Below, piece after piece: positions 47,509-60,228 of a DNA stretch of 60,228 bases. Every line of letters begins with the position of its first letter. Position 1 is the stretch's first letter. Both the position numbers and the translations under genes were made by a program. The stretch comes from Phascolarctobacterium sp. (lineage in GTDB: Bacteria; Bacillota; Negativicutes; Acidaminococcales; Acidaminococcaceae), in contig JAGAPX010000014.1 in the NCBI GenBank assembly GCA_017623055.1, positions 1 through 60,228 of the forward strand. The letters run 5' to 3'. Under the pieces are notes generated by a model. The model ran no database searches and was not told the DNA's origin. It worked only from the letters and a program-made list of their open reading frames with translations.

Positions 47509-47599
47509 GGAGTGGTACTCAAGTGGCTGAAGAGGACGGTTTGCTAAATCGTTAGACGGTTTACCCCGTGCGTGGGTTCGAAACCCACCCACTCCGCCA
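47509..47599 (+). tRNA. tRNA-Ser(GCU), integration target of the element
   Basis: A class II tRNA of 91 bases including CCA. The acceptor GGAGTGG pairs with CCACTCC, the loop TTGCTAA carries anticodon GCT, and a long variable arm and canonical T loop follow. It reads AGC/AGU serine codons. The integrase gene lies 174 bases downstream, so the 3' end of this tRNA or the DNA just after it is the likely attachment site. The tRNA is intact. Confidence 0.97.
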
Positions 47600-47611
47600 A
47601 TAAGCGGTTTT

Positions 47612-47646
47612 CAGGACTTAGAATTTTCTAAGTCCTGTATTTTTTT
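47612..47646 (+). terminator. Intrinsic terminator after the tRNA genes
   Basis: CAGGACTTAGAA and TTCTAAGTCCTG form a 12-bp perfect stem followed by TATTTTTTT. Confidence 0.9.
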
Positions 47647-47652
47647 ATCCAA

Positions 47653-47673
47653 GGATGACAACGAGGATGACAA
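47653..47673. repeat. Tandem GGATGACAA repeats at the element's left edge
   Basis: GGATGACAA occurs twice, at 47653-47661 and 47665-47673, spaced 12 bases start to start. Short direct repeats beside an attachment site are typical arm-binding sites for tyrosine integrases. The matching right end is outside the window. Confidence 0.45.
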
Positions 47674-47690
47674 TTACATTTTAAACATCA

Positions 47691-47739
47691 AAAAAGCGAT
47701 GCTTTTGGGACATAATAAGTGCCAGAAACATCGCTTTTT
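47691..47739 (-). terminator. Terminator of the integrase operon, bidirectional in form
   Basis: AAAAAGCGATG and CATCGCTTTTT are perfect 11-base arms; the inner sequences TTTTGGGAC and GTGCCAGAAA extend the stem with a mismatch. The A/T runs on both sides suit either direction. It lies 34 bases past the integrase stop. Confidence 0.85.
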
Positions 47740-47760
47740 ATATTTTTGTAGGAAAGAGTT

Positions 47761-47776
47761 TTAATCGAACGATTAA
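47761..47776. promoter_or_regulatory. Perfect palindrome at the integrase 3' end
   Basis: TTAATCG-AA-CGATTAA is a perfect palindrome overlapping the integrase stop codon. It resembles a repressor operator but no promoter is seen beside it. It differs in one base from the site upstream of lpxA (30764-30779). Confidence 0.4.
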
Positions 47777-49038
47777 CTATTCTCTGAAGCATTTTCAATA
47801 ACTGTATTTAATAATGTGGGGACGCTATAATGAGGAGTTTGATTAGCTATAGTAACAGGAGTGGATAAGAGTTTGTAGCCGTCTAGAGCGTTTATAGCAG
47901 TGTCCTGCATGCCTTTGATGGCATGTGCATAGGTATCTAATGTAATCCGTATAGAAGCGTGCCCTAAACGCTCAGAGACGACTTTCACATTAACACCAGA
48001 TGATAAGAGCCAAGTAGCATGACAATGACGTAAGTCGTGAAATCTAAGCGTTGGAGGAAGGCTACTGACGGTTTGAACGACCTTTTTAAAGTAATGGTAT
48101 GAAAAAGAGGCAGGATGCCTTACATCTCCATATTGATTAGCAAAAACAAAGTTGTTATCAATATAGGTGCTGGAGTTTATTACCTTATAGAAAGTGTCTT
48201 GCCAGTACTTGTATTCTTTAAGAGTTTTGACAACGAATTCTGGTATTGGAATTGTTCTTCTGCTACCATTAGTTTTTAAATCTTTTTGTATTACGGTACC
48301 ATGATTAGTTTTTACAGCACTTTGCATGATGTGTATTACATTCTTACTAAGGTTAATATTGTCCCATGTTAGACCGAAAATTTCACCAAGCCTCATACCT
48401 GTTCCTAATGCGAGAACTATGGCTAAAAAGCTAATCATACTATGTGCTTTTGCTGCAACAATTAGTTCTAAAGCCTGTTCGTGAGAAAGGATTAGTATTT
48501 CGGGTTTAGGAGCTTTGACTGTCTTTGTTTTATCAGCAGGATTTTTAGGGATGTAACCTAAGTCGATGGCATCGTTTAAGGATTGAATAAGAACACGTCT
48601 AGTTGCATTTACTGTACGTGGTGCAAGACCTTTTTCTGATTCACCACCAAATTTTAAAAGAAACATTAGATGCTGTTGTAAGTTGTCGGTAGTTAAAGAA
48701 TTTAAGGGCATATTGCCTATGTAAGGAACTATATGTTTGTTGATTGCTAAGGCGTACCTTTCGTATGTTTTTATACGAATCTCGGGTTGTTTATAATTAG
48801 TAAGCCAATGTTGAAGCCATTCACCAAGGGTTTGTTGACTTTTTACTATATCAACATTCTCCTTAATAAGTTTATTGAAGGCAGTTGCCTTTTTCATAGC
48901 GTCTTTTGCACTCTTTTTACTAGTAAAGACTTTGCGCTTAGTCTTATTTTCGCTTGAATCGTAGTAGCTTATATAATATTCAAAACGATTACGTTTTTTG
49001 TTGTATTGAGGACAACCTTCACCATTAGAACGTTTCAT
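47773..49038 (-). CDS. int: Tyrosine-type site-specific integrase
   Basis: This 421-residue phage/Tn916-type integrase inserts and excises the element. The N-terminal AP2-like arm-binding part (about 1-60) and a SAM-like core-binding domain (about 68-165) precede the catalytic domain (about 185-385). The catalytic residues are R216 (GTGMRLGEI), H334 and R337 (FHDLRHCHATWLL), H360 (LGHASI) and nucleophile Y370. The ATG is 7 bases after GGAGG. It is the last gene of a minus-strand operon with xis and mob genes and lies beside tRNA-Ser(GCU). Confidence 0.96.
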   Translation of the reverse strand: MKRSNGEGCPQYNKKRNRFEYYISYYDSSENKTKRKVFTSKKSAKDAMKKATAFNKLIKENVDIVKSQQTLGEWLQHWLTNYKQPEIRIKTYERYALAINKHIVPYIGNMPLNSLTTDNLQQHLMFLLKFGGESEKGLAPRTVNATRRVLIQSLNDAIDLGYIPKNPADKTKTVKAPKPEILILSHEQALELIVAAKAHSMISFLAIVLALGTGMRLGEIFGLTWDNINLSKNVIHIMQSAVKTNHGTVIQKDLKTNGSRRTIPIPEFVVKTLKEYKYWQDTFYKVINSSTYIDNNFVFANQYGDVRHPASFSYHYFKKVVQTVSSLPPTLRFHDLRHCHATWLLSSGVNVKVVSERLGHASIRITLDTYAHAIKGMQDTAINALDGYKLLSTPVTIANQTPHYSVPTLLNTVIENASENS

Positions 49039-49053
49039 AAATTTGCCTCCTAA

Positions 49054-49075
49054 CTAAACAAAGCCCTTACGGGCT
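49054..49075 (-). terminator. Short hairpin between xis and int
   Basis: AGCCC-GTAA-GGGCT on the minus strand followed by TTGTTT is a weak terminator or attenuator that may lower integrase expression relative to the genes before it. Confidence 0.45.
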
Positions 49076-49080
49076 CTGTT

Positions 49081-49269
49081 TTATGCAATGCTTTTTTTAT
49101 TGAGTAATTCTTCAATATACCAGCTTGGAATTAGTTTACGTGTTCCGATGGTTACGGAAGGGATGCTTCCGTTTCTGATGCCTGCGTAAACACAAGACAA
49201 ACTTATGGGTAGCGGACCTCCGTTTTTAGTAATTACATCTTTTGCGTTGTAGAGTGTTTGCGGTTTCAC
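49081..49269 (-). CDS. xis: Excisionase-like helix-turn-helix protein
   Basis: This 62-residue MerR-type helix-turn-helix protein resembles excisionases of Tn916-like elements and IMEs. It has AKDVITKNGGPLPISLSCVYAGIRNGSIPSVTIGTRKL in one domain and an IPSWYIEELL end typical of the group. It starts with GTG, 10 bases after GGAGG. Its position directly before int supports a role in the direction of recombination. Confidence 0.82.
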   Translation of the reverse strand: MKPQTLYNAKDVITKNGGPLPISLSCVYAGIRNGSIPSVTIGTRKLIPSWYIEELLNKKSIA

Positions 49270-49288
49270 GATATATATACCTCCTTGT

Positions 49289-50491
49289 CTAAATTAATTT
49301 ATATTTTCTAAGGACTTTTTCTGCTGGGACGTAGAAATTGGTTTCGGTAATTATCTCGTCAATGATACGTTCTGAAATTTTTTCTCCAAGTTTGGGTAAA
49401 TCGTTTACCCCAAAAAATGGAGTTGTTGGTTGCTTTTCTATATAATCGTGAGGTATTGTTGCTGAACCGTTACGTACAGATTCTTGGCATTCGATACAGA
49501 GTGGTGCGTTGAAGTGTTTGATTGAGAAATCTAGCACATTGGCACGGATTTTTTTATTACAAATAGTACAGCAAGGATCATAAACAGGTGGCTTCAAGGG
49601 CGGTAAGAGGGAGTTTTCTCTGAACGGATTGTCACGAGGAGTGGGAGTGGATATAGCTGCGTTCGTTGCCACGTTAGCAGTAATGGATTTGTTGGTGTTT
49701 TGAGGGTGAGATGCAAAAGGATTCGGCATAAAGGTTACAGGATTTCCATAACCAGCTTGTTGCATAACGGGTACAGGATTTCCATAACCAGCTTGTTGCA
49801 TAACGGGTACAGGATTTCCATAATCAGCTTGTTGCATAATGGGTACAGGTGTTCCATAGTAAGCTACTTGTTGTGAGTAGTTAGAATTGTTACATTGTTC
49901 ATAGTTTTGCTTTTCTTGGAAATCAAGCAAAATTGCGACATATGGACTAATTTCGTTGCAATCATGCTCTTCGATTACATCGGGGAGTATAGCTTTTTCA
50001 GAAACTTTTTTTCTTAAAGGAAGTCCGTATTTTGAGAAGATGCGGTCTACTAAATCACGTTGCATAACGAGATCGGTGTTGCTAAGTTGTAAGCGTTTAC
50101 CGGTCAGAACGTCGATGGTGGAGCCAACGATATGTACATGTGGATGCTTGGTGTTGGAATGAACTGCAGCGATTATTTGGTATGTACCTTTTTTAGCAAA
50201 AAATTCAGTAATAAAATCTTTAGTGCCATTAAGCAAATCAGTATGGGTGATGCCACCGGAAGCAGAGATTACAGAATGAAATGCAATTCTACCGCCTTTT
50301 TGAGAAAATTTATCCAATACGATGTTGGTTTCTTTTTCCCATTCGTTTTCGGAAAGATTGTGATAAAAGGATGCGGCAACTTTGTCAGGGTTCAGGACAT
50401 AAGCAACGTTCTTGAAAATGGGGTTGCTGCTTGCGTTGATAGCTTTTGAGTTGAAGTTACGGAAAATAATGGTATTGCTAGATTTGGCCAT
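49289..50491 (-). CDS. Relaxase (MobA/MobP type) with internal repeats and a zinc ribbon
   Basis: This 400-residue DNA-nicking relaxase for conjugal mobilization has a candidate catalytic tyrosine Y31 in AYVLNPDK and the metal-binding histidines in HSNTKHPHVH (H111, H116, H118, H120). After the relaxase domain (about 1-160) comes a linker with 12-residue repeats (about 212-251, YGNPVPVMQQAG) and then a four-cysteine zinc ribbon (C308, C311, C332, C335). The zinc ribbon and repeats are not standard for the family. GGAGG lies 9 bases before the ATG. It overlaps the upstream ribbon-helix-helix gene by 14 bases. Confidence 0.88.
   Translation of the reverse strand: MAKSSNTIIFRNFNSKAINASSNPIFKNVAYVLNPDKVAASFYHNLSENEWEKETNIVLDKFSQKGGRIAFHSVISASGGITHTDLLNGTKDFITEFFAKKGTYQIIAAVHSNTKHPHVHIVGSTIDVLTGKRLQLSNTDLVMQRDLVDRIFSKYGLPLRKKVSEKAILPDVIEEHDCNEISPYVAILLDFQEKQNYEQCNNSNYSQQVAYYGTPVPIMQQADYGNPVPVMQQAGYGNPVPVMQQAGYGNPVTFMPNPFASHPQNTNKSITANVATNAAISTPTPRDNPFRENSLLPPLKPPVYDPCCTICNKKIRANVLDFSIKHFNAPLCIECQESVRNGSATIPHDYIEKQPTTPFFGVNDLPKLGEKISERIIDEIITETNFYVPAEKVLRKYKLI
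49740..49847. repeat. 36-bp tandem repeats inside the relaxase gene
   Basis: Three 36-base units run head to tail (49740-49775, 49776-49811, 49812-49847); the first two are identical and the third has two changes. A partial, diverged unit continues to about 49877. They encode the 12-residue YGNPVPVMQQAG-type repeat in frame, so copy number can change without breaking the protein. Confidence 0.9.
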
Positions 50492-50753
50492 GGAAAAGTT
50501 CCTCCTTAAAATTATTCAAGATTTTTTTGCCTGTTTCGTCTGTGTGGGAAACGAGCAAGGTTAATAAGTAACGCAAATAATTTTCTTGATTGGCACGAAG
50601 TTGGTCGGCTGTTAGGTCACTGGTGTTGTAAAAGCTGGAAATTGCTTTTCGAATAGCATCGGATCTATTGGGAGAGTAGCCGTTTTTTACTACACCATCG
50701 AGGAGCATAAGCTCCTCGTTGGTGAGACGAATGGTGATGCTTAATGACTTCAT
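50478..50753 (-). CDS. Ribbon-helix-helix relaxosome accessory protein
   Basis: This 91-residue protein has an N-terminal ribbon-helix-helix DNA-binding fold (SLSITIRLTNEELMLLDGVVKNGYSPNRSDAIRKAI, about 3-42) and a helical tail. Such CopG/MobC-like proteins bind the transfer origin and guide the relaxase. It overlaps both neighbours (ATGA with the helicase stop, 14 bases with the relaxase), a sign of coupled synthesis. Confidence 0.82.
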   Translation of the reverse strand: MKSLSITIRLTNEELMLLDGVVKNGYSPNRSDAIRKAISSFYNTSDLTADQLRANQENYLRYLLTLLVSHTDETGKKILNNFKEELFHGQI

Positions 50754-52096
50754 TCAGTTGCCTCCTCGTTTTGGGGGGAGATAACAGACAAGCCTTTATA
50801 TCCATATGCCGGAGCGCTTCCGTCAATGCGAAATTTAGAGTACAGAACCCCTGGTAATGTACCGATTGCCGATTTCAGTTCTTGATCGGACTGAGGCTGA
50901 ACTGCATTTCTGAGGCAAAAAGCGTGGTAGAGACTCAAAAGAGTTTTTGTGTGGAGCTTTTTATTGGTATCTTCTTCGATGCGGATGCAGTCTTTGAGGA
51001 ATTTACTAACGGAGTTAACTTCTATCGCATAGCGTTCAAGGTAATCATTCGCAATTTGCGGAGTTGCAAATTGAAACTTTGATTTCACAAGTCTAGGTAC
51101 GCTAGCTAGTGCCCAAGAAACGATAGTGTCCTTTTCAGCCAGCAATTTTTCTAGAAGGTAAGGGTCGCGTCTATCGGCAGTAATAGAATTTCCGAAGTAA
51201 AGCAGCTTTATGCGTTCTAAAATTGCAAGGGGGTCTGCATCAGCCAAGGGGGGGAGGAAGTTGCCACAGTACAAAAGGTGAGCGGTTGAGATGAAGGTTT
51301 CTGGTTCAGCATTTTTTCTCTCGATAATGATGCTATCTCCAGAGCTTATACGTTTAAACACATCAAAACCAGTAACTTTGTTGGAGCTAATCTCCTCACA
51401 AATGTTTGCGGAAGCATTCTTAAGCATTGCCAAACGGAATTTGTCTGAGAGCTCCTGCAGGGATAAGGCGGATGTATTCGGAAGCACAGCTCGTAAAAAT
51501 CTTGCGAGTACGCTCTTGCCAGCACCGGATACCCCAATTAGAAAAAACGCGCCCTTGAAGGTGCGAATGTTTGTGAGGGTAAATCCTAGAATTTGTTGTA
51601 ATAAAAGGATGCTGTCTTCGTCAGCTTGAAAAGTATCCTTTAAAAAATTAGAAAAAACAGGAGCTGTTTCTAATGTTGCGTTTGGATCAAATTTCGCATC
51701 TATCTTGAAAGAAAAAAACTTACGTTCATCGCTAACAGAAGAATGAAGCTGACCGTCATGCACACTAAAAAGACCATTTTGCAGGCAAATGTAGTCTGGA
51801 GGATTTAATTCCTTAATGTTCAAGCACGGAAGCTCGGATAAAGTTTTAATGGTATCTTTCAAGAGGCCATTAGTTATGATAACGTTATCATCGTTGGAAA
51901 AGTGTTTGCGCAGTAAGAGAGTAGCCTTGCTACCACAAAGAGGAGAAACGAAGCAATCATCATCAAGAATGTACAAAGTACCTTGAAAATTTACGAAAAG
52001 GTTGGAGTTAACTAATGCTTCAAGGAAGCGAATGCGATTTAATTTTTTGGTGCCGTCGTGTTTGATGTCAACAGCTGTGTCAATGTTCAGTAACAT
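50750..52096 (-). CDS. SF3 helicase (D5/P4-type replication protein)
   Basis: This 448-residue phage/plasmid-type replicative helicase has a D5-like N-terminal part (about 105-175), then the SF3 ATPase with Walker A GVSGAGKS (188-195), an acidic Walker B region (NICEEIS) and the LLYCGNFLPPL sensor strand. A C-terminal winged-helix-like part follows. No primase active site is visible, so primase function may come from the host. I take ATG 52096, after GGAGA, and discard the longer frame that lacks a ribosome site. It heads the mob-int operon. Confidence 0.87.
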   Translation of the reverse strand: MLLNIDTAVDIKHDGTKKLNRIRFLEALVNSNLFVNFQGTLYILDDDCFVSPLCGSKATLLLRKHFSNDDNVIITNGLLKDTIKTLSELPCLNIKELNPPDYICLQNGLFSVHDGQLHSSVSDERKFFSFKIDAKFDPNATLETAPVFSNFLKDTFQADEDSILLLQQILGFTLTNIRTFKGAFFLIGVSGAGKSVLARFLRAVLPNTSALSLQELSDKFRLAMLKNASANICEEISSNKVTGFDVFKRISSGDSIIIERKNAEPETFISTAHLLYCGNFLPPLADADPLAILERIKLLYFGNSITADRRDPYLLEKLLAEKDTIVSWALASVPRLVKSKFQFATPQIANDYLERYAIEVNSVSKFLKDCIRIEEDTNKKLHTKTLLSLYHAFCLRNAVQPQSDQELKSAIGTLPGVLYSKFRIDGSAPAYGYKGLSVISPQNEEATE

Positions 52097-52331
52097 ACTA
52101 GATCTCCTTTCGGTATAAAAAATGATACAGCAAGGATAACACATAGTTTGTATTTTTACAACACACAAAAAGGAATCCAAAAACGTGAGAATAAAATAAA
52201 TAGTAACAAAAACAACTAATTGACAACAAAATAAGTGGCATAATTACAAAGAAAGGATTTATAAAAACGACAAAAGATGAATAAAGTTAGAAAAAGCGGA
52301 TGTGGGAATAAAGCTGAAAACTGATGAGAAT
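52097..52331 (-). promoter_or_regulatory. A+T-rich gap upstream of the helicase: promoter and possible origin
   Basis: This holds the leader of the mobilization operon. Minus-strand promoter candidates are TTGTAA-17-TATCCT (about 52134-52162) and TTGTCA-18-TATTTA further upstream. I found no clear iterons or long inverted repeat. By position between an SF3 helicase and a mob operon it may hold oriT or a replication origin, but nothing in the sequence proves it. Confidence 0.4.
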
Positions 52332-52364
52332 AAAAACGCCCGGAACTTTAGTGTTCCGGGCGTT
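52332..52364 (-). terminator. Intrinsic terminator after the 572-residue gene
   Basis: CGCCCGGAAC and GTTCCGGGCG form a 10-bp perfect, GC-rich stem; read on the minus strand it is followed by TTTTTATT. It begins 13 bases past the stop codon. Confidence 0.9.
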
Positions 52365-52376
52365 CCAGTGTTCCAA

Positions 52377-54095
52377 TCATTCTTTCTTTAGATAAAATAA
52401 ATTGATGATATCATTCAAGAGGTTGGAACGATTTTGGTCTTCGTATGCTAATTTGCTAACTTGATTTAGTGTTGAGAGAAGTGCTGTGTTTATTTTGCCA
52501 GTACGTTCATAAACTTGAAAATCTGGTAAATTTGATTTGACATAGTAGGATTTGTTTGTTGATTTTTCTCTTACGTTATTTATTATTTGTAAGATTAGGG
52601 TCAGCTCTTTTTCGCTTACACCTTTTAAAATCTCATGCCTAAAGTGTTTAATAAGTCCTGAATCCATATATGAAAACGGTCGAGATAAAACTAATGACAT
52701 AGAAGAAGGATCCTTTGACTCAGTATAAATAGCATCCATAAATTCGCAATATCTAAATTTAGGATAGATGTATAGTATTCGCTGATATTTTTCGGGAACT
52801 AACGAAGTTAAATAGTCGATAGTGATTTGCAGTTTTTCTTCAATAAGTGATATGGTTGAAGAACTAATACTACCCTTAGTTTGGTTATTGGTTATTCTAG
52901 AGTAAAGTGAGTCATCTATGCCATATGTTTTTAGAAAGGCTGTAATATTTGGGAAATTATAACTTTTAATTTCAGCTTTTAATCTTGCTTGAAATTGGTT
53001 ACGATCACGATTGGCCTTATCTTCAAAATTTAATTGCCTATGATGATGTAAATCCAATTTGAAATGCTTATAAGGATGAGACTCTTTAAGAAGGTAGTCG
53101 ATACTAAAAATTTTAAAGGTATAGAATGTATGTTCCAAGAAGAAATTGGAGAGATGTAATATTTGGTTCGGATGGGTGGATAATATGTAGAAAAAAGTTT
53201 TTAACATATTTTCATAGATTGCGGATTTATCTTTACAAATGCTGAATGGAGATATTTGAAGATTTTTTGCGATAGTGAATAGTAAGGATTTTGTGATGGA
53301 TATGCTCGTGTTTGCAAAACTAAGAATAAATTTTTCTAATTGTGACTTTTTAATGACTATATTATCAGATGTTTTGGCACTGTTACAGAATTCGGTAATA
53401 TGTTTATATTCCAATTCCCTTTGTTCTTTTAGTTCAAAAGCTGGTCTAAGTAAAGAGATAAAACTTAGAGTGTCTATTGTAAAAGGACGAACGGGTGCAT
53501 AAGATGGGTGCGAGATTTTACAAAAGAACTTTATTGCTTCTGAGATATTTGATTTTAGTTTATTGGAGTTTTGTATTATATCTGATAAATCATACATATC
53601 AATCGCGATATGTGTGGTACTTTCAGCAAAATTTTCAATTTTTTTCAATACTGATTTTTGAGAGATGTTTTCGTCGCTATACACAGTTTCTAATGGGGAT
53701 GTAAGACTATAAAAGCTTTGGACAAAGGATGACAATGTACTAGATTTAAACTCATACTCGGTTATCGTTGAAGAGTTCAAAATATGAATAAGGTTATTTA
53801 TTGACACATCAATTAAATCATTATCACAGGATTTAATGAATTTGGTATGAAAATCTTCTCTTATCATGGAAAGGAACATTTTTTTTGCTCGGTAGGTGAA
53901 TGGCTCTATTTTTTCGAGATCATATGGAGTCTTAAAGTAAGTGTAAAGTAGAGTGTCTTCTTCGGCATCTGCTGCTTCTCTAATTCTATTTAGGAAATGT
54001 TTAGGAGTAGTAGAAAATTTACATTCTGAAACCTTAGAAAAAGACAATATGGGGGAGAGGGCATCTTTATCGTAGATACGTTCATAGATATTCAT
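52377..54095 (-). CDS. Unknown 572-residue protein with internal helix-turn-helix-like segment
   Basis: I do not recognise this protein. It is largely helical, rich in Ile, Leu, Ser, Lys and Phe, and has no signal peptide or membrane segment. Around residues 385-435 a stretch (FLKTYGIDDSLYSRITNNQT then ISSSTISLIEEKLQITIDYL) resembles an XRE-type helix-turn-helix embedded in a larger protein. It is a single-gene unit, with its own promoter overlapped by a palindrome and its own terminator. Low G+C sets it apart from the host genes. This layout (regulated, monocistronic, inside an element) is typical of cargo such as defence or stress modules, but no such function is shown. Confidence 0.75.
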   Translation of the reverse strand: MNIYERIYDKDALSPILSFSKVSECKFSTTPKHFLNRIREAADAEEDTLLYTYFKTPYDLEKIEPFTYRAKKMFLSMIREDFHTKFIKSCDNDLIDVSINNLIHILNSSTITEYEFKSSTLSSFVQSFYSLTSPLETVYSDENISQKSVLKKIENFAESTTHIAIDMYDLSDIIQNSNKLKSNISEAIKFFCKISHPSYAPVRPFTIDTLSFISLLRPAFELKEQRELEYKHITEFCNSAKTSDNIVIKKSQLEKFILSFANTSISITKSLLFTIAKNLQISPFSICKDKSAIYENMLKTFFYILSTHPNQILHLSNFFLEHTFYTFKIFSIDYLLKESHPYKHFKLDLHHHRQLNFEDKANRDRNQFQARLKAEIKSYNFPNITAFLKTYGIDDSLYSRITNNQTKGSISSSTISLIEEKLQITIDYLTSLVPEKYQRILYIYPKFRYCEFMDAIYTESKDPSSMSLVLSRPFSYMDSGLIKHFRHEILKGVSEKELTLILQIINNVREKSTNKSYYVKSNLPDFQVYERTGKINTALLSTLNQVSKLAYEDQNRSNLLNDIINLFYLKKE

Positions 54096-54123
54096 ATAAT
54101 TATCTCCTTTCTATTACAACTTC

Positions 54124-54152
54124 ATACTATAATAGTATATTTAAACCGTCAA
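54124..54152 (-). promoter_or_regulatory. Promoter with operator-like palindrome, 572-residue gene
   Basis: On the minus strand TTGACG (54147-54152) and TAGTAT (54124-54129) are spaced by 17 bases. The -10 box lies inside a perfect palindrome ATACTATAATAGTAT (54124-54138). A repressor bound there would shut the promoter; the small XRE protein of the element or the internal helix-turn-helix of the gene product itself are candidates. Confidence 0.7.
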
Positions 54153-54282
54153 GTTTTACCACTAGGTGTGTAAAAATACTGATTTAGAGAAAGGCTAGAG
54201 AAAGGGGACAATATTTTCAAATTCATAATGATTAATTATTCTTAAAGCAATGATACTTAATTAAGTAAGGTGTAATAAACCA

Positions 54283-54318
54283 AAATAAAAATACCCACAA
54301 CGATTTTATTCGTTGTGG
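54283..54318 (-). terminator. Intrinsic terminator after the 727-residue gene
   Basis: CCACAACGA and TCGTTGTGG form a 9-bp perfect stem with a TTTTAT loop; on the minus strand a run GTATTTTTATTTT follows. Confidence 0.88.
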
Positions 54319-54339
54319 ATATTTTGGTAGTAACATTAT

Positions 54340-56523
54340 TCAAATCCAACTTTGGCTCATTTCTTCTAGTGTTGAAGTAGAAATGTATTCATCACCTTCT
54401 GCCATTTTTATTAACCTAACTTTACGTAATTTCTTCACCCTTCTCTTAAGGCGAATAAAGCAGAACGCTAGATAAACAAGGCCGAACCAACCTAATGCAA
54501 ATGCGATGGCAATACCTATAAAAGATTTCAGATATGTATGATTATCTCTATATTTACGGTCATCATACATTTTGCTCCATTTTTCATAATTGCCCAATTC
54601 TTCTTTAGCGGCAGCGATATCTAATGCTTTAGCTTGTTCAATACATTCAGTTTTCTCAGCTTCATCTTCTGCTTTGGCTGAAGGATCCATGTCCTTCTCT
54701 TTTTGCTCTTTTAAAGAAAGAGGTTGAGAACTTTTTGCTTCTGCTTGTTTAGTGCTAAATAATATTTTAAACTCTTCTGCGGTGTTCGCATCGGTATCTT
54801 CTGGTAAGCTCGAACGATTCCATACACTATATAGATCCCTAATGGTATAGACTGTTGTCAATACATTGCTCTTGAAAATAGTTTCATCATCAGTAAACTT
54901 CTTAGCAAGGCAGACTCTGACGCTGTTGATAAAAATATCTGCACCATACCAGCGGAATTCACATTTTATGGCTTTTATGTCTGATAAATTTAAATGAATC
55001 AATTTGTTGTCATCATCATAAAAATATAAACCGTTTGAACACAATAAACAGTTAGATTTTAAATAAACATAGGGTTCGTAGTTTATAGCGTCCGGAAATT
55101 CGTTATACATATTTCTGGGGAATAAATCACCAATATATAAATCGTAATAACTTCTTGCGTTACGTGCAGCGATTAATCTTAAATTTGCGTCTGCTGACAA
55201 AAAACCTAAAGTAATATTTTCTTTACTAGCTTCTTTACAAAACAGCTCATTAACCGTATTTATGTATGTATTATAAAATGTACTTTTTTTCGATTCGAAG
55301 ATTTGCAATGTTTTAGTTAAATGATTATATATGACAGTATCTTTACTATCGACTTTATCTAACAAATCCATAGTACAACGAATGCACCAATTAATAGCGG
55401 TAAGGTTATATTGTAAATCATAAGATGATATCAATTCATTGTAATCATTGTCATTATATTTCCCATCTAATTTGTTAATGAGATTAAGCTTAGAATTAAT
55501 AGTGCGAACTAAAATTTCATTATAGGATGATATTGTGATTGTATCACTTCTGTTACTATATTCAGTATCATTACATTTAAAATGCGCCGAGATATCAATC
55601 CCAAAATAATTCGCTATATCCTTAATTCCATTGAGAATCTTATCGGAATATAATAGTATCTGTTTATGAGTTTCTAAATTGTCAGGCTCATTTTTAAACG
55701 CATTACTTGCAGATTTGTCAGCATATTTGATATAAGTTTCATAAGCAGATACATTATATGGATCTAACTTCATTGCCTCTAAAATAGCCTTTTGTTCGGC
55801 TTCTGCATCAGTTAGTTTACCATTATTAACATTTGTTAAAATTGCAGTTGCTTTCCTGCTGTCAAAATCAACTTTTATTTCCAGTTGATTAATTACAGCC
55901 GTAAAAATATTAACCATGGTTTCTTCGAAACCAATATACAGAGCAAGGCGACTTTGGGTACGTAAATCTTCCTTTAAATCGTTTATCCTATCATCTGTCT
56001 TCATCTTATTGAAAACATTAAGACCATTATAGGCTAAGCCTGTAACAGTATTAATGGCACTAGCTGTAATAATTCCTTTTGCTGCACCACTTAATCCAAA
56101 GCCTCCACCTACAACTTGTGCTCTATTTAATTTAGCTAGTTGTCTATTAATTGCTTCTTTCTTACCATATACCTTTATTTCATGTATTCCTGATACAAAT
56201 TCGAAATACGGTTCCATAAATGGATTTATTACTTCATGAAAGAGATCATCATTGCTTGTTAAATAATCAGCAGAAAAATCTATGTATCCTTTATTTAAAT
56301 ATAAATCTTCGAAGGAATGATAAAGTTGTGCAAAGTATTTTAATGCTGTATCAAGAACTGTTTTTTCAAGTTCATCAGCGGTAGAAACATTAACTAAATA
56401 TCTAAAAAAACATTCGCCATAATAAGATTGTTCTTTTAGAAATCTAGAATACACATTATTATATTCTTCTATATCCCCTTCAAATATAATGGTATTATCA
56501 CCTAAAACAAATTGTTTACTCAT
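54340..56523 (-). CDS. Unknown 727-residue protein with a glycine-rich hydrophobic hairpin and C-terminal membrane helix
   Basis: I do not recognise this protein. It is mostly helical. Residues about 136-166 form a glycine- and alanine-rich hydrophobic stretch (VVGGGFGLSGAAKGIITASA) like a membrane-inserting hairpin. A strand-rich segment near 495-570 (YVYLKSNCLLCSNGLYFY, then a Trp-Tyr strand) looks like a small PH-like domain. A charged linker leads to a clear membrane helix (about 664-686) and a basic tail. The start is the ATG at 56523, 6 bases after AAGGAGTGG. It stands alone with its own terminator. A membrane-targeted effector is imaginable; nothing proves it. Confidence 0.75.
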   Translation of the reverse strand: MSKQFVLGDNTIIFEGDIEEYNNVYSRFLKEQSYYGECFFRYLVNVSTADELEKTVLDTALKYFAQLYHSFEDLYLNKGYIDFSADYLTSNDDLFHEVINPFMEPYFEFVSGIHEIKVYGKKEAINRQLAKLNRAQVVGGGFGLSGAAKGIITASAINTVTGLAYNGLNVFNKMKTDDRINDLKEDLRTQSRLALYIGFEETMVNIFTAVINQLEIKVDFDSRKATAILTNVNNGKLTDAEAEQKAILEAMKLDPYNVSAYETYIKYADKSASNAFKNEPDNLETHKQILLYSDKILNGIKDIANYFGIDISAHFKCNDTEYSNRSDTITISSYNEILVRTINSKLNLINKLDGKYNDNDYNELISSYDLQYNLTAINWCIRCTMDLLDKVDSKDTVIYNHLTKTLQIFESKKSTFYNTYINTVNELFCKEASKENITLGFLSADANLRLIAARNARSYYDLYIGDLFPRNMYNEFPDAINYEPYVYLKSNCLLCSNGLYFYDDDNKLIHLNLSDIKAIKCEFRWYGADIFINSVRVCLAKKFTDDETIFKSNVLTTVYTIRDLYSVWNRSSLPEDTDANTAEEFKILFSTKQAEAKSSQPLSLKEQKEKDMDPSAKAEDEAEKTECIEQAKALDIAAAKEELGNYEKWSKMYDDRKYRDNHTYLKSFIGIAIAFALGWFGLVYLAFCFIRLKRRVKKLRKVRLIKMAEGDEYISTSTLEEMSQSWI

Positions 56524-56697
56524 AAAAACCACTCCTTATATATCGTAATGTTTTTAGTGACTAATTATTTTACAATAAATTGCACATTTCTATATCAAAA
56601 CACAGTATTTCCCGTTTGCAACAGGACACAATAAATTTTTTACATACCTATTTCAATTGTGATATCTGCCCAATTAACAACTTATATGTCAAAGAAG

Positions 56698-56913
56698 TTA
56701 TTCTTTCAACAGTTCATTTGAATCTATTCCCAAAGCTGCGGCAATAATCCATAGTGTGGTCAATGGTAAATTAGAATACAAACCATGCTCTATCTTTGAT
56801 AAATATGATGGCGAGATATTTGCCTTCTCTGCAAGCTGTTCTTGAGTAAGACCTTGTAATCGTCGATTATATAAAATTTTTGCACCAATTTTCTTATATC
56901 TTGTAGCAAACAT
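56698..56913 (-). CDS. Small XRE-family repressor
   Basis: This 71-residue protein consists of little but a helix-turn-helix domain (KILYNRRLQGLTQEQLAEKA, then SPSYLSKIEHG), similar to SinR/Cro-type repressors of mobile elements. ATG 56913 has AGGAGAG 7 bases upstream. A minus-strand promoter TTGCCT-17-TATTTA lies just upstream, its -35 box overlapping one arm of the large inverted repeat, which fits autoregulation. It sits between the unknown 727-residue gene and the recombination module and may control either. Confidence 0.85.
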   Translation of the reverse strand: MFATRYKKIGAKILYNRRLQGLTQEQLAEKANISPSYLSKIEHGLYSNLPLTTLWIIAAALGIDSNELLKE

Positions 56914-56952
56914 ATTCACACTCTCCTATAAATATTATGCTACTAAAAGAAA

Positions 56953-57004
56953 GGCAATATATTGACCGATAGGAATATAATTTCCTGTTAGTCAATATAT
57001 TGCC
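56953..57004. repeat. Inverted repeat with 14-bp arms upstream of the XRE gene
   Basis: GGCAATATATTGAC (56953-56966) and GTCAATATATTGCC (56991-57004) are exact inverted copies around a 24-base centre that is itself partly symmetric (TAGGAA/TTTCCT). Each arm also contains the smaller palindrome CAATATATTG. It lies after the recombination module and before the XRE gene, so it may be both operator and transcript end. Confidence 0.85.
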
Positions 57005-57027
57005 CATTTGTTAGATTTTTTGATAAA

Positions 57028-57306
57028 TCAAGATAGAAATTTCAGTATTGTTTTACCCAATAATCGTTTCTCCGCTATTCGCATCTTCCTTAAAGAGGTT
57101 AATTCTTTTGTAAGCTCCAAAATTTCCTTTTCATCCATAGTTCTTAAGAACCTACGCAACCTTGAAATCATGATGTTGGCAATACGTTCTATAACCACTA
57201 TGTTTCGTATGTCGTTGTTCTCTTTCAATAGCTCTGATATAAGCTTATCACTCGTATTCATCATATCCCTTAACATATGCTTGTCTAAAGCTGATAATTG
57301 TTTCAT
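57028..57306 (-). CDS. Small helical protein, unknown function
   Basis: This 92-residue charged helical protein (MKQLSALDKHMLRDMMNTSD at the start, basic C terminus) has no motif I know. The ATG at 57306 follows GGAGG; upstream in-frame codons overlap the ERF gene end and lack such a site. It is the last gene of the recombination module, 10 bases from the ERF gene, so an accessory part in DNA processing is possible. Confidence 0.65.
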   Translation of the reverse strand: MKQLSALDKHMLRDMMNTSDKLISELLKENNDIRNIVVIERIANIMISRLRRFLRTMDEKEILELTKELTSLRKMRIAEKRLLGKTILKFLS

Positions 57307-57316
57307 AACAATCCTC

Positions 57317-57919
57317 CTATGCAGCTTTATTAGCAAGTTTTTGGCAATCCCTACACAATACACGTCCGTATCTATTGCTTGAGAAACTTATCACTCTAGC
57401 ATCAGTGATAATCGTCCCGCAATCTACACAAGTTTTAGAATTACCAGTTGCCTTTGGTTGGGTAGTAGGATTGGCTTTTTCAGAAGTTGCTTCATCAGTA
57501 CCCGTATCCGCTTCTGGATCATCACCAGTAGCAATACAGAGACTAAGCATAAAAGCATATTTAATGGCAGCTGTTTGAGCCTTCATAACGGCTTTATCAC
57601 CTGCATCTTGTCCAGAGCCGATACCAAATAAATCTACTGATTCTCCTGTGTCGCTATCAATAAGATGTACTTGAACACTGACAGTAGCAAGGTGTTCTTT
57701 CTTTTCATTTCGGTTCAATACTTCAAGCATAGATTCAAGAGTAGGAGATACAATGCTTGCAATGTTGTACTTAGTAAGAGAAGCATTTACTTTTTGAAGC
57801 ACATCTTCTGCAGTAGCATATTTGTAATTATGGTAATCATTTTGACCGTTCTTTATTACATGACTACATTCACTCATAACCTTTACCAATTTCTTTGCAA
57901 TATTTTTATTTTCCAACAT
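57317..57919 (-). CDS. erf: ERF-family single-strand annealing protein with zinc finger
   Basis: This 200-residue phage-type recombinase anneals single strands. The ERF core (about 1-140) shows YHNYKYATAEDVLQKVNASL and the conserved GSGQDAGDKAVMKAQTAAIKYA segment ending in CIATGDDPEAD. A linker leads to a four-cysteine zinc finger at the end (C164, C167, C189, C192). The ATG follows AGGAGG. With the nearby Cas4/AddB-like nuclease it makes an exonuclease-annealase pair like lambda Exo-Bet. Confidence 0.92.
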   Translation of the reverse strand: MLENKNIAKKLVKVMSECSHVIKNGQNDYHNYKYATAEDVLQKVNASLTKYNIASIVSPTLESMLEVLNRNEKKEHLATVSVQVHLIDSDTGESVDLFGIGSGQDAGDKAVMKAQTAAIKYAFMLSLCIATGDDPEADTGTDEATSEKANPTTQPKATGNSKTCVDCGTIITDARVISFSSNRYGRVLCRDCQKLANKAA

Positions 57920-57928
57920 AGTTCCTCC

Positions 57929-58219
57929 TTAATTATCACTAGGGAAAAGTATGGTTATAACTGTATATTCAACTTTGTTTTCACTTTCTGCCATAATCCA
58001 AATCTTTCCCTTGGTCGTTTCATAAACTGCTAATACTCTATCTTTATATTTAAGAGCATCATTATTTACTACAATATCTTCTGGCGAAGTCTCACCAAAG
58101 TCTAAACGTAAAAACTTAGATGTAGCAGTCATTACTTCCTGACTAAAAGTTTTAGATTCTTTAGTTGCTAAATCAATAGTTTCTGTCTTACAAATTCTTG
58201 CCTTATCAAATGGTCTCAC
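57929..58219 (-). CDS. Small protein between the ERF and bS6-like genes, unknown
   Basis: This protein of about 96 residues has no family I recognise. The first third is polar, followed by an alternating strand pattern (DRVLAVYETTKGKIWIMAES, then YTVITILF). The start is probably GTG 58219, 7 bases after AAAGGG; GTG 58228 is also possible and would overlap the bS6-like gene. Its place directly after an S6 gene is where ssb lies in host chromosomes, but it shows no OB-fold signature I can identify. Confidence 0.6.
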   Translation of the reverse strand: MRPFDKARICKTETIDLATKESKTFSQEVMTATSKFLRLDFGETSPEDIVVNNDALKYKDRVLAVYETTKGKIWIMAESENKVEYTVITILFPSDN

Positions 58220-58220
58220 G

Positions 58221-58508
58221 CTATTCACCCTTTCGGATAATCATATGTCGAAGAACTTCATCGGTGCTAATCTTCATAACTCTGTCAAGCTCATGCACGC
58301 ACTTCGATTCAGCCAAAAATGTTACAAGCACATACAATCCTTCCTTTAAATTTTGAATCTCATAGGCAAGACGTTTCCTGCCCCAGCGGTCTACTTTTTC
58401 GATGATACCGCCATTATTAGTTATCAGTGTGTTGAATTTGCTGACGATTGTTTCAAACGCATCATCTTCCATAGGTTTGACGATATACATGATTTCATAA
58501 CTTTTCAT
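58221..58508 (-). CDS. Ribosomal protein bS6 homologue on the mobile element
   Basis: This 95-residue protein has the full bS6 pattern: YEIMYIVKP first strand, then a helix, EKVDRWGRKRLAYEIQNLKEGLYVLVTF with the conserved WGRxxLAYxI core, and a final MKISTDEVLRHMIIRK. The length equals a standard bacterial S6. Normal rpsF is followed by ssb and rpsR; here the neighbours are an unknown small gene, ERF and a nuclease, so this is a second, element-borne copy. The ATG at 58508 has GGAGG 8 bases upstream. It could replace host bS6, or it could have been recruited to bind RNA or single-stranded DNA. Confidence 0.9.
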   Translation of the reverse strand: MKSYEIMYIVKPMEDDAFETIVSKFNTLITNNGGIIEKVDRWGRKRLAYEIQNLKEGLYVLVTFLAESKCVHELDRVMKISTDEVLRHMIIRKGE

Positions 58509-58523
58509 TACATTTACCTCCAT

Positions 58524-58554
58524 AATAAAATAACCGAAAGCATTATGCTTTCGG
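58524..58554 (-). terminator. Hairpin upstream of the bS6-like gene, partial terminator
   Basis: CCGAAAGC-ATTAT-GCTTTCGG is an 8-bp perfect stem; on the minus strand TTATTTTATT follows. It separates the nuclease gene from the bS6-like gene without an evident new promoter. Confidence 0.7.
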
Positions 58555-58577
58555 CTATCTTGTAGTCTATTTCTAAT

Positions 58578-59468
58578 TCACGCAGCATTCAGAGTAATTT
58601 CTTTAAGCTTTTTACCATACTCACAATTATCTGCGACTGCACAATAATCTAAGCACTTACGATTCTTCCAACGTTCTTTTACAGTGCATACTGGTGGCAG
58701 CTCCTTTGTTTCCAAGGCTCTTTTCAGGCGTTTTGCTTTAGTTTCCATATAAAGCTTAATCCAGTAGTCGGAGATTTTGTTAATGTTGATGATATACAAG
58801 GGGCTAGTAATATTTCGTTCAGCAGCAATACGTAAGCTAAAGTCTCTACAAAACGCTTGTATCTTCATATCCTTAACCTCAAAACCTCTTTGCTCCAACA
58901 GAATACGGTAATAGTTGAGCTGGATTGCCCAGTCTAAAATATGGCGTACACCATCTGTACGCCATTCTTTTTTAGTTTTAGGCTGACCTTTTTTCAATCC
59001 TGTTTTGTATACTTCACCAGTAGGAACATCAACCTTGTAATATCCTAACGCTCTCATAAGCTTATAGGAACTGGTGATTTTATAATCACCGAGAGTATTA
59101 TCTCCATAACTAATTATTTGCCCATATAGGTCGAACTTACCACTGGTTATATCATCGGCCAATCGTTCTTCGCTTAGTATATTCCCATCAGTAAAGCCTT
59201 CATTAATGGTATGCACAGCACTACCATGTAAGGCATAGAGTTGTTGTACTGGATTAACTGCATAATCAGTCGTCTTCTTTAAATATGTTTCCCTCGTACC
59301 ACAAAGAAGTTCAGTAACGGTAGGTTCCTTAATCTTTCGGTCTAAAGATTTTGCTACAGCTCTAAGGGTTGGGAGAAACATACATCTTTCGCTACCAATA
59401 CAGTTTTCAAGGCATAAACCTATAGGTATCTTATTGCCACTAGGACAGATAAATTCTGTTGCACCCAT
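58578..59468 (-). CDS. PD-(D/E)XK nuclease with Cas4/AddB-like cysteine cluster
   Basis: This 296-residue nuclease of the RecB/Cas4 superfamily has an HGSAVH segment (H81, H86), active-site D113 (KFDLYG) and D128-Y-K130 (LGDYK), and the QxxxY motif Q183-Y187 in QLNYY. Four cysteines at the C terminus (C261, C272, C276, C282) plus an N-terminal set (C8, C19, C23, C29) suggest an iron-sulfur cluster as in Cas4 and AddB. ATG 59468 follows AAAGGAAG by 7 bases. No cas genes or CRISPR array are nearby, so the partner is the ERF annealase. Confidence 0.85.
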   Translation of the reverse strand: MGATEFICPSGNKIPIGLCLENCIGSERCMFLPTLRAVAKSLDRKIKEPTVTELLCGTRETYLKKTTDYAVNPVQQLYALHGSAVHTINEGFTDGNILSEERLADDITSGKFDLYGQIISYGDNTLGDYKITSSYKLMRALGYYKVDVPTGEVYKTGLKKGQPKTKKEWRTDGVRHILDWAIQLNYYRILLEQRGFEVKDMKIQAFCRDFSLRIAAERNITSPLYIININKISDYWIKLYMETKAKRLKRALETKELPPVCTVKERWKNRKCLDYCAVADNCEYGKKLKEITLNAA

Positions 59469-59482
59469 ACTAATACTTCCTT

Positions 59483-60070
59483 TCATTCTTCACTATATTC
59501 GTACAGATTGAAATAATCATCTGGTTTATCTATAAGCCAGTTCTGCACTCTATCGTTTATTTCGTCAACAGAATCATAGTTAGAAAATTCCATTTCCGGA
59601 ATCTTTTCTCTAAGCACCTCTACAACTTCTTTGAATATTGAATAGTATTCCATAACGTACTCACCATTGATGCAGAAGTCTAAATGATACTGATCTGAAA
59701 AGAATCTTCCATTTGTATCTGTGTTGACATAAATTTCAGATCCAGGTTCAACAGAACAATATACAAAATCTATTTGGTTACTGTAACGTTCCTCTAATAT
59801 TTTGCTGAATGCTTCAACATTTGGTGTCCCAGCAGACTCTGTTTGAATGATGAAATAATATGAAGTATCATCTCTGTTCACGACGTCGGAAACTTCAACG
59901 AAAGTATCTCTGCCGTCTGTAAATCTAAAGGTTTCCTCTTCTGAGTAACCACACTTCATAGCAAAATCACGAATGAACTCACACTTATCATCCATTAGCG
60001 TTCTAAAATTCTCTAATTTATCTAAATCATTGCCATAAAAAGCAATGCAGTTACTACAATGATTAGCCAT
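59483..60070 (-). CDS. Hypothetical protein with Api92/YubB-like ferredoxin-fold start
   Basis: This 195-residue acidic protein opens with MANHCSNCIAFYGNDLDKLE, like the phage and plasmid family that begins MANWCxNxLxxxG (Api92/YubB, ferredoxin-like fold), whose function is unknown. The rest alternates strands and acidic helices. GAGGTGG lies before the ATG. Its stop is separated from the nuclease start by 14 bases, so it belongs to the same transcript. Confidence 0.7.
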   Translation of the reverse strand: MANHCSNCIAFYGNDLDKLENFRTLMDDKCEFIRDFAMKCGYSEEETFRFTDGRDTFVEVSDVVNRDDTSYYFIIQTESAGTPNVEAFSKILEERYSNQIDFVYCSVEPGSEIYVNTDTNGRFFSDQYHLDFCINGEYVMEYYSIFKEVVEVLREKIPEMEFSNYDSVDEINDRVQNWLIDKPDDYFNLYEYSEE

Positions 60071-60083
60071 ATATCCACCTCAC

Positions 60084-60228
60084 TTATGCAACAAATATGT
60101 TAGTAGTTTCTGCCATTTCAATTACCTTACCGTAAGAAGTACAGTTTCCGTGCTTGGCTTCATCGAAACATCTTTCAGTAATCTGCATTTCGTTCTGCAA
60201 AGCATCCACTGCCATCTGAGCAGTAGTC
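60084..60228 (-). CDS. 3' end of another element gene (cut by the window edge)
   Basis: An open frame runs in from the right edge and ends at TAA (60084-60086), 13 bases before the next start. The visible 47 residues (QMAVDALQNEMQITERCFDE, then HGNCTSYGKVIEMAETTNIF at the end) are too few to assign. The tight spacing makes it part of the same operon. Confidence 0.6.
   Translation of the reverse strand, partial: TTAQMAVDALQNEMQITERCFDEAKHGNCTSYGKVIEMAETTNIFVA

Follow-up and report, generated by a model that had tools for sequence, protein, structure and literature searches.

An additional bS6 gene in a Phascolarctobacterium genome

What does a gene for ribosomal protein bS6 do among the recombination genes of a mobile element? 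We addressed this question for a window of 60,228 nucleotides (contig JAGAPX010000014.1, assembly GCA_017623055.1) from Phascolarctobacterium, a roe-deer-gut genus; this genome is termed G000 and other members of the genus G001–G003. The gene is located as follows:

58221–58508, − strand: element-borne ribosomal protein bS6, 95 amino acids, starting at ATG 58508 (PF01250, E = 8.8e-30; TIGR00166; purifying selection)

As the original prediction had it, the open reading frame encodes a full-length canonical bS6, which can be aligned over its full length to solved structures of ribosomal S6 and scores 87 bits against the TIGR00166 equivalog model (cut-off 43). The cut-off was exceeded in all four element copies scored, the other three coming from further loci (L041, 62 bits; L069, 67 bits; L036, 78 bits). 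A GGAGG Shine–Dalgarno sequence lies about 9 nt upstream of ATG 58508, and as a further in-frame ATG at 58523 overlaps it, 58508 is the likely start. The AlphaFold model, calculated for the divergent copy L041 and not for the window copy, displays the β-α-β-β-α-β fold of S6 with a pLDDT of 91, and its top PDB matches are ribosome-bound S6 chains. Of 20 residues that are near-invariant in host S6, the window protein keeps 18, and L041 and L069, the two most divergent copies, keep 12–13, with the LAYE and RHMI motifs invariant in all aligned element copies. The element proteins are still recognisable as S6.

PF01250 matched twice in G000, once in the window and once in an rpsF-ssb-rpsR operon on another contig (C29:7798–8751), making the window S6 an additional copy. 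A relocated host gene, the explanation foreseen for a genome holding no other rpsF, is ruled out by this operon. The two proteins share 78% identity, and the genes are identical at 203 of 285 nt with a longest identical run of 13 nt; together with saturated synonymous sites these values rule out a recent duplicate of the host gene, and for the same reasons a homology arm for recombination with host rpsF is unlikely. In the tree with host copies the element gene is neither identical nor nearly identical to host S6, as it would be after the recent accident considered at the outset.

The element gene does not share the linkage of the chromosomal gene to ssb, rpsR and the rpsF leader; its neighbours differ, in line with the initial placement outside the rpsF-ssb-rpsR context. 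We found no SSB in the window module nor in the S6-bearing elements of G001–G003, where the only SSB is a chromosomal one in G001. The suggestion that the element captured the rpsF end of an rpsF-ssb pair is not borne out, as the search of the module yielded no SSB and the leader of host rpsF is missing. Throughout the class, host rpsF genes exhibit a conserved leader overlapping the Shine–Dalgarno sequence, which by its position and conserved CC(A/G) we tentatively read as the known S6:S18-responsive regulatory element (PMC4647458, PMC10931766). Rfam gave no rpsF leader match in the loci searched, and a model was therefore built from the host leaders. It matched in the six host loci searched, loci already represented in its training set, and in 0 of 10 element loci.

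A conserved leader on the host operon that is absent from the element copies is what a regulatory role would call for: the extra S6 together with host S18 would repress rpsF-ssb-rpsR via the leader, lowering SSB and S18, with the element copy immune. However, repression in E. coli needs both S6 and S18 overexpressed (PMC4647458), and no S18 was found beyond the chromosomal one, nor any in the elements. We regard such a regulator as distinctly improbable.

The gene lies within an integrative element

The element is delimited by two 34-bp repeats and comprises the following features besides bS6:

47567–47600, + strand: attL, 34-bp repeat at the 3′ end of tRNA-Ser (tRNA-Ser at 47509–47599)
47773–49038, − strand: tyrosine integrase (phrog_1, 2.8e-86)
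49289–50491, − strand: MobA/VirD2-like relaxase (PF03432, 3.2e-16)
50750–52180, − strand: D5_N/DUF5906 primase-helicase (PF19263, PF08706)
52377–54095, − strand: 572-aa protein, no family assigned
54340–56532, − strand: 730-aa protein, no family assigned, 98% identical in L033 and L042
56698–56919, − strand: small HTH repressor-like protein (PF01381, 1.3e-16)
57028–57363, − strand: 111-aa protein, no family assigned, conserved in the module
57317–57919, − strand: ERF-family single-strand annealase with C-terminal zinc ribbon (PF04404, 1.4e-14; phrog_155)
57929–58228, − strand: 99-aa protein, no family assigned, start overlapping the S6 stop, also conserved in S6-less modules
58534–58554, − strand: terminator-like hairpin (9 pairs) separating exonuclease from S6; T-rich tract on this strand
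58578–59486, − strand: RecB/Cas4-like PD-(D/E)XK exonuclease, 302 aa, eight invariant Cys (phrog_2139, 9.4e-21; alignment)
59483–60070, − strand: 195-aa protein, no family assigned, conserved upstream partner of the exonuclease
Contig G000:C44, about 67942–67980: attR, second copy of the 34-bp repeat, without tRNA

The att repeats, integrase and relaxase place the window S6 inside a mobile element, as had been proposed, and the gene order from tRNA-Ser into the module is integrase, relaxase, primase. The relaxase contains a repeated QQAGYGNPVPVM-type segment mid-protein. The window end (60088–60228) overlaps the end of contig C44 by 141 bases, indicating that the element spans 47567–60228 and continues for about 7 kb on C44, giving a length of roughly 19.6 kb; this join is based on the overlap and the att repeat rather than on reads. 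The C44 part (G000:C44:67942–75016, L092) encodes a DUF932 protein, two HTH_17 proteins, D12-class and N6/N4 DNA methylases and a 680-aa protein without Pfam match; this gene set resembles a restriction-modification locus. Phage structural or packaging genes were not found among the proteins scanned, which cover part of the islands' ORFs.

S6 follows the exonuclease of a Red-like module

The original prediction had placed S6 between a Cas4/AddB-like nuclease and an ERF annealase. Both neighbours are present, the exonuclease directly upstream, but the 99-aa ORF between S6 and ERF had been omitted. In our reading, the exonuclease alignment combines motifs of RecB type with eight invariant cysteines, a Cas4/AddB-like feature; the predicted structure (pLDDT 38) was too poor for use. 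With an exonuclease next to a single-strand annealase, the genes correspond to a Red-like module of predicted enzymatic activity; a recombination module had been assigned originally. In sister modules a Rad52-like annealase takes the place of ERF (PF04098 in L033 and L036), so that S6 modules carry ERF in some cases and the Rad52-like protein in others. In the window's group, S6 comes after the terminator-like hairpin, which is present in L033, has altered pairs in L035 and is broken in L034 and L045; the number of terminator-like sites in its region is within chance. In the divergent group, S6 starts 14–20 nt past the exonuclease stop.

Element-borne S6 genes are confined to one genus and one viral-database contig

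We surveyed PF01250 in two overlapping sets, 380 genomes from the class and 398 from the phylum, which amount to about 760 different Bacillota genomes. Multiple matches were restricted to the window's genus: G000 has two; G001 has six, namely four element copies and a host gene broken into two parts on C23 and C28; and G002 has three, all element copies. The single match in G003, the fourth member, is likewise an element copy. These three further genomes thus contribute eight element S6 genes, 42–98% identical, seven of which lie directly beside the exonuclease; the arrangement recurs in other elements, as the original prediction had suggested looking for. The host operon is absent from the G002 and G003 assemblies, where ssb and rpsR are missing as well, and for this reason we do not conclude that an element S6 is the sole S6 there or has replaced the host protein.

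Scanning with the exonuclease yielded 25 loci, mostly from Negativicutes, and one independent IMG/VR contig (L069). S6 directly follows the exonuclease in 6 of the 25 and in L069. Most exonuclease modules of other Negativicutes lack S6, several having exonuclease and ERF side by side, and in S6-less loci the position after the exonuclease is taken directly by ERF, by the 99-aa protein or by other genes. The exonucleases accompanied by S6 fall in two clades, a single clade not being formally rejected (AU p = 0.109).

Several local peculiarities were observed. At G002:C9:16204–41372 (L076, L077) about 23 kb with chromosomal genes separate the exonuclease half from the S6–99-aa–ERF half, reflecting either rearrangement or misassembly; an IS200-type transposase lies beside this S6, which is intact. 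In the slot, L049 (6449–7043) has a YefM/RelE-type pair and L050 (10991–13151) an HTH-HipA-type pair, both called by eye from sequence resemblance and not by family search. L069 also encodes a serpin-like protein, again recognised by eye, a short distance downstream of its S6 module (L069:13474–14144).

Assembly artefact or contamination is unlikely, the same arrangement being present in several separate assemblies and the IMG/VR contig, with the caveat on independence that two of the related genomes belong, by their names, to a single series of roe-deer-gut MAGs. The IMG/VR contig has no visible phage structural genes, and viral contigs contained no close relative of the window S6. Of the phage-database S6 hits, the one examined (L071; MT835476.1, 114 kb, "Bacteriophage sp.") is apparently a piece of bacterial chromosome, which holds rpsF-ssb-rpsR alongside further bacterial genes. 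The analogy to phage-borne ribosomal proteins drawn originally is therefore loose, no phage structural genes having been seen in the annotated parts of the elements either.

The repeated position bears on a second explanation, in which S6 would be a nucleic-acid-binding helper of the exonuclease/annealase pair, replacing a single-strand DNA-binding protein or guiding annealing. S6 directly adjoins the exonuclease in both exonuclease clades and with two annealase types, no SSB accompanies it in the elements of G001–G003, and the spacing in the divergent group is tight. On the other side stand the many S6-less modules, including those with exonuclease and ERF adjacent, and the ribosomal signature kept in the element proteins; we consider this role unlikely, though ahead of the regulator.

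The slot likewise invites an interpretation as protective cargo, S6 serving as a decoy or as a resistant form of the target where some factor (from host or phage, or a toxin) acts on S6 or the 30S platform. The toxin-antitoxin-like pairs of L049 and L050 occupy the same slot, restriction-type genes occur on the islands, and S6 is a phosphorylation target of T7-like kinases during infection (cited in PMC6375957). However, those pairs were recognised by eye and no S6-directed toxin or defence factor was identified in this analysis, leaving protective cargo a rather improbable explanation.

The element S6 lineage is under purifying selection

In the tree, nine distinct element S6 proteins fall on one side of a branch separating them from host S6 (94/91; 92% of bootstraps), with host-family S6 proteins as their nearest relatives. 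Adding a distant Thermus outgroup lowers the support to 45/90, and a topology that pairs the window group with its own host S6 is not rejected by the AU test (p = 0.21); because of these two results a single origin of the element S6 proteins is favoured but not proved. If both the S6 and the exonuclease trees are right, either S6 has been transferred from module to module or exonucleases have been swapped among modules.

Between element copies dN/dS ranges from 0.05 to 0.19, indicating purifying selection. Relative to the host gene, synonymous sites are saturated, and the element copies are nonetheless intact. Evolution is faster than in host S6 for the more divergent copies, those with 42–48% identity to the window protein. 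The element S6 is selectively maintained and not an accident. A passive hitch-hiker or recent accident of no benefit to the element would agree with the confinement to one genus and one contig; given intact copies at saturated synonymous distance, the low dN/dS and the occurrence in many modules, we consider it very improbable.

A broader interpretation is that mobile bS6 has become a standing partner of exonuclease and annealase that passes between modules and has moved beyond ribosomal constraint, acting as a recombination or establishment factor or forming element-specific ribosomes. We put this forward tentatively, as possible but well short of an even chance.

A variant S6 may enter host ribosomes

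Ranking the specific roles, we place ribosome substitution first and the recombination helper second. In the former, to which we give an even chance, the element would supply a functional variant of S6 that escapes host feedback and is taken up into host 30S subunits upon module expression. S6 would have been captured from an Acidaminococcaceae-type chromosomal rpsF and long maintained as a functional lineage by integrative or mobilisable elements of Phascolarctobacterium, where it occupies the position immediately 3′ of the RecB/Cas4-like exonuclease. With the conserved host leader lost, S6 would be made with the exonuclease/annealase module upon its expression and not on host S6 demand. It would then pair with host S18 and replace host S6 in new 30S subunits, so that translation may be adjusted or protected during establishment or mobilisation of the element. 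Expression timing, ribosome incorporation and the benefit to the element are what we infer from the genes.

This ribosomal role is supported by the equivalog scores, the S6 fold of L041, the retained residues and purifying selection, as well as by one lineage nearest to host-family S6 proteins, the repeated slot and the missing leader. A precedent is given by phage bS21 and bL12, which enter 70S ribosomes (PMC6375957). Against this role, S6 is not listed among the readily exchangeable ribosomal proteins in that work, suggesting that incorporation would affect mainly newly assembled subunits. Further points against it are the faster evolution of the divergent copies, two of which keep only 12–13 of the 20 host-near-invariant residues, and the fixed place in a recombination module, which is not required of a general ribosome-tuning gene.

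Comparison with known systems

Virus-encoded ribosomal proteins comprise bS21, bL12, bL9 and, rarely, bS6 in uncultivated phages (PMC6375957, PMC9723584). The element S6 resembles them as a single captured gene under purifying selection with plausible ribosome substitution. In contrast to them, it resides in relaxase/integrase islands, in whose annotated parts no phage structural genes were seen, within an exonuclease-annealase module, and with several diverging paralogues in one genus. With the chromosomal rpsF-ssb-rpsR of Bacillota it shares protein family, fold and length, but it differs in sequence, lacks ssb, rpsR and the leader, and is part of an integrative element. The module itself, a RecB/Cas4-like exonuclease with an ERF or Rad52-like annealase, matches the Red-like, ERF or Rad52 modules of phages and plasmids, apart from the bS6 gene inserted directly after the exonuclease.

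Our search of the open-licence literature turned up no account of bS6 carried by integrative elements or located next to recombination genes, and a bS6 lineage fixed in their recombination module appears to be undescribed. Ribosomal proteins of mobile elements have so far been mostly from phages and mostly bS21 or bL12; here, bS6 is kept and diversified in integrative elements, beside recombination enzymes and free of its autoregulatory leader. It thereby offers a test case for either a non-phage mobile element re-equipping host ribosomes or a ribosomal protein converted into a recombination partner.
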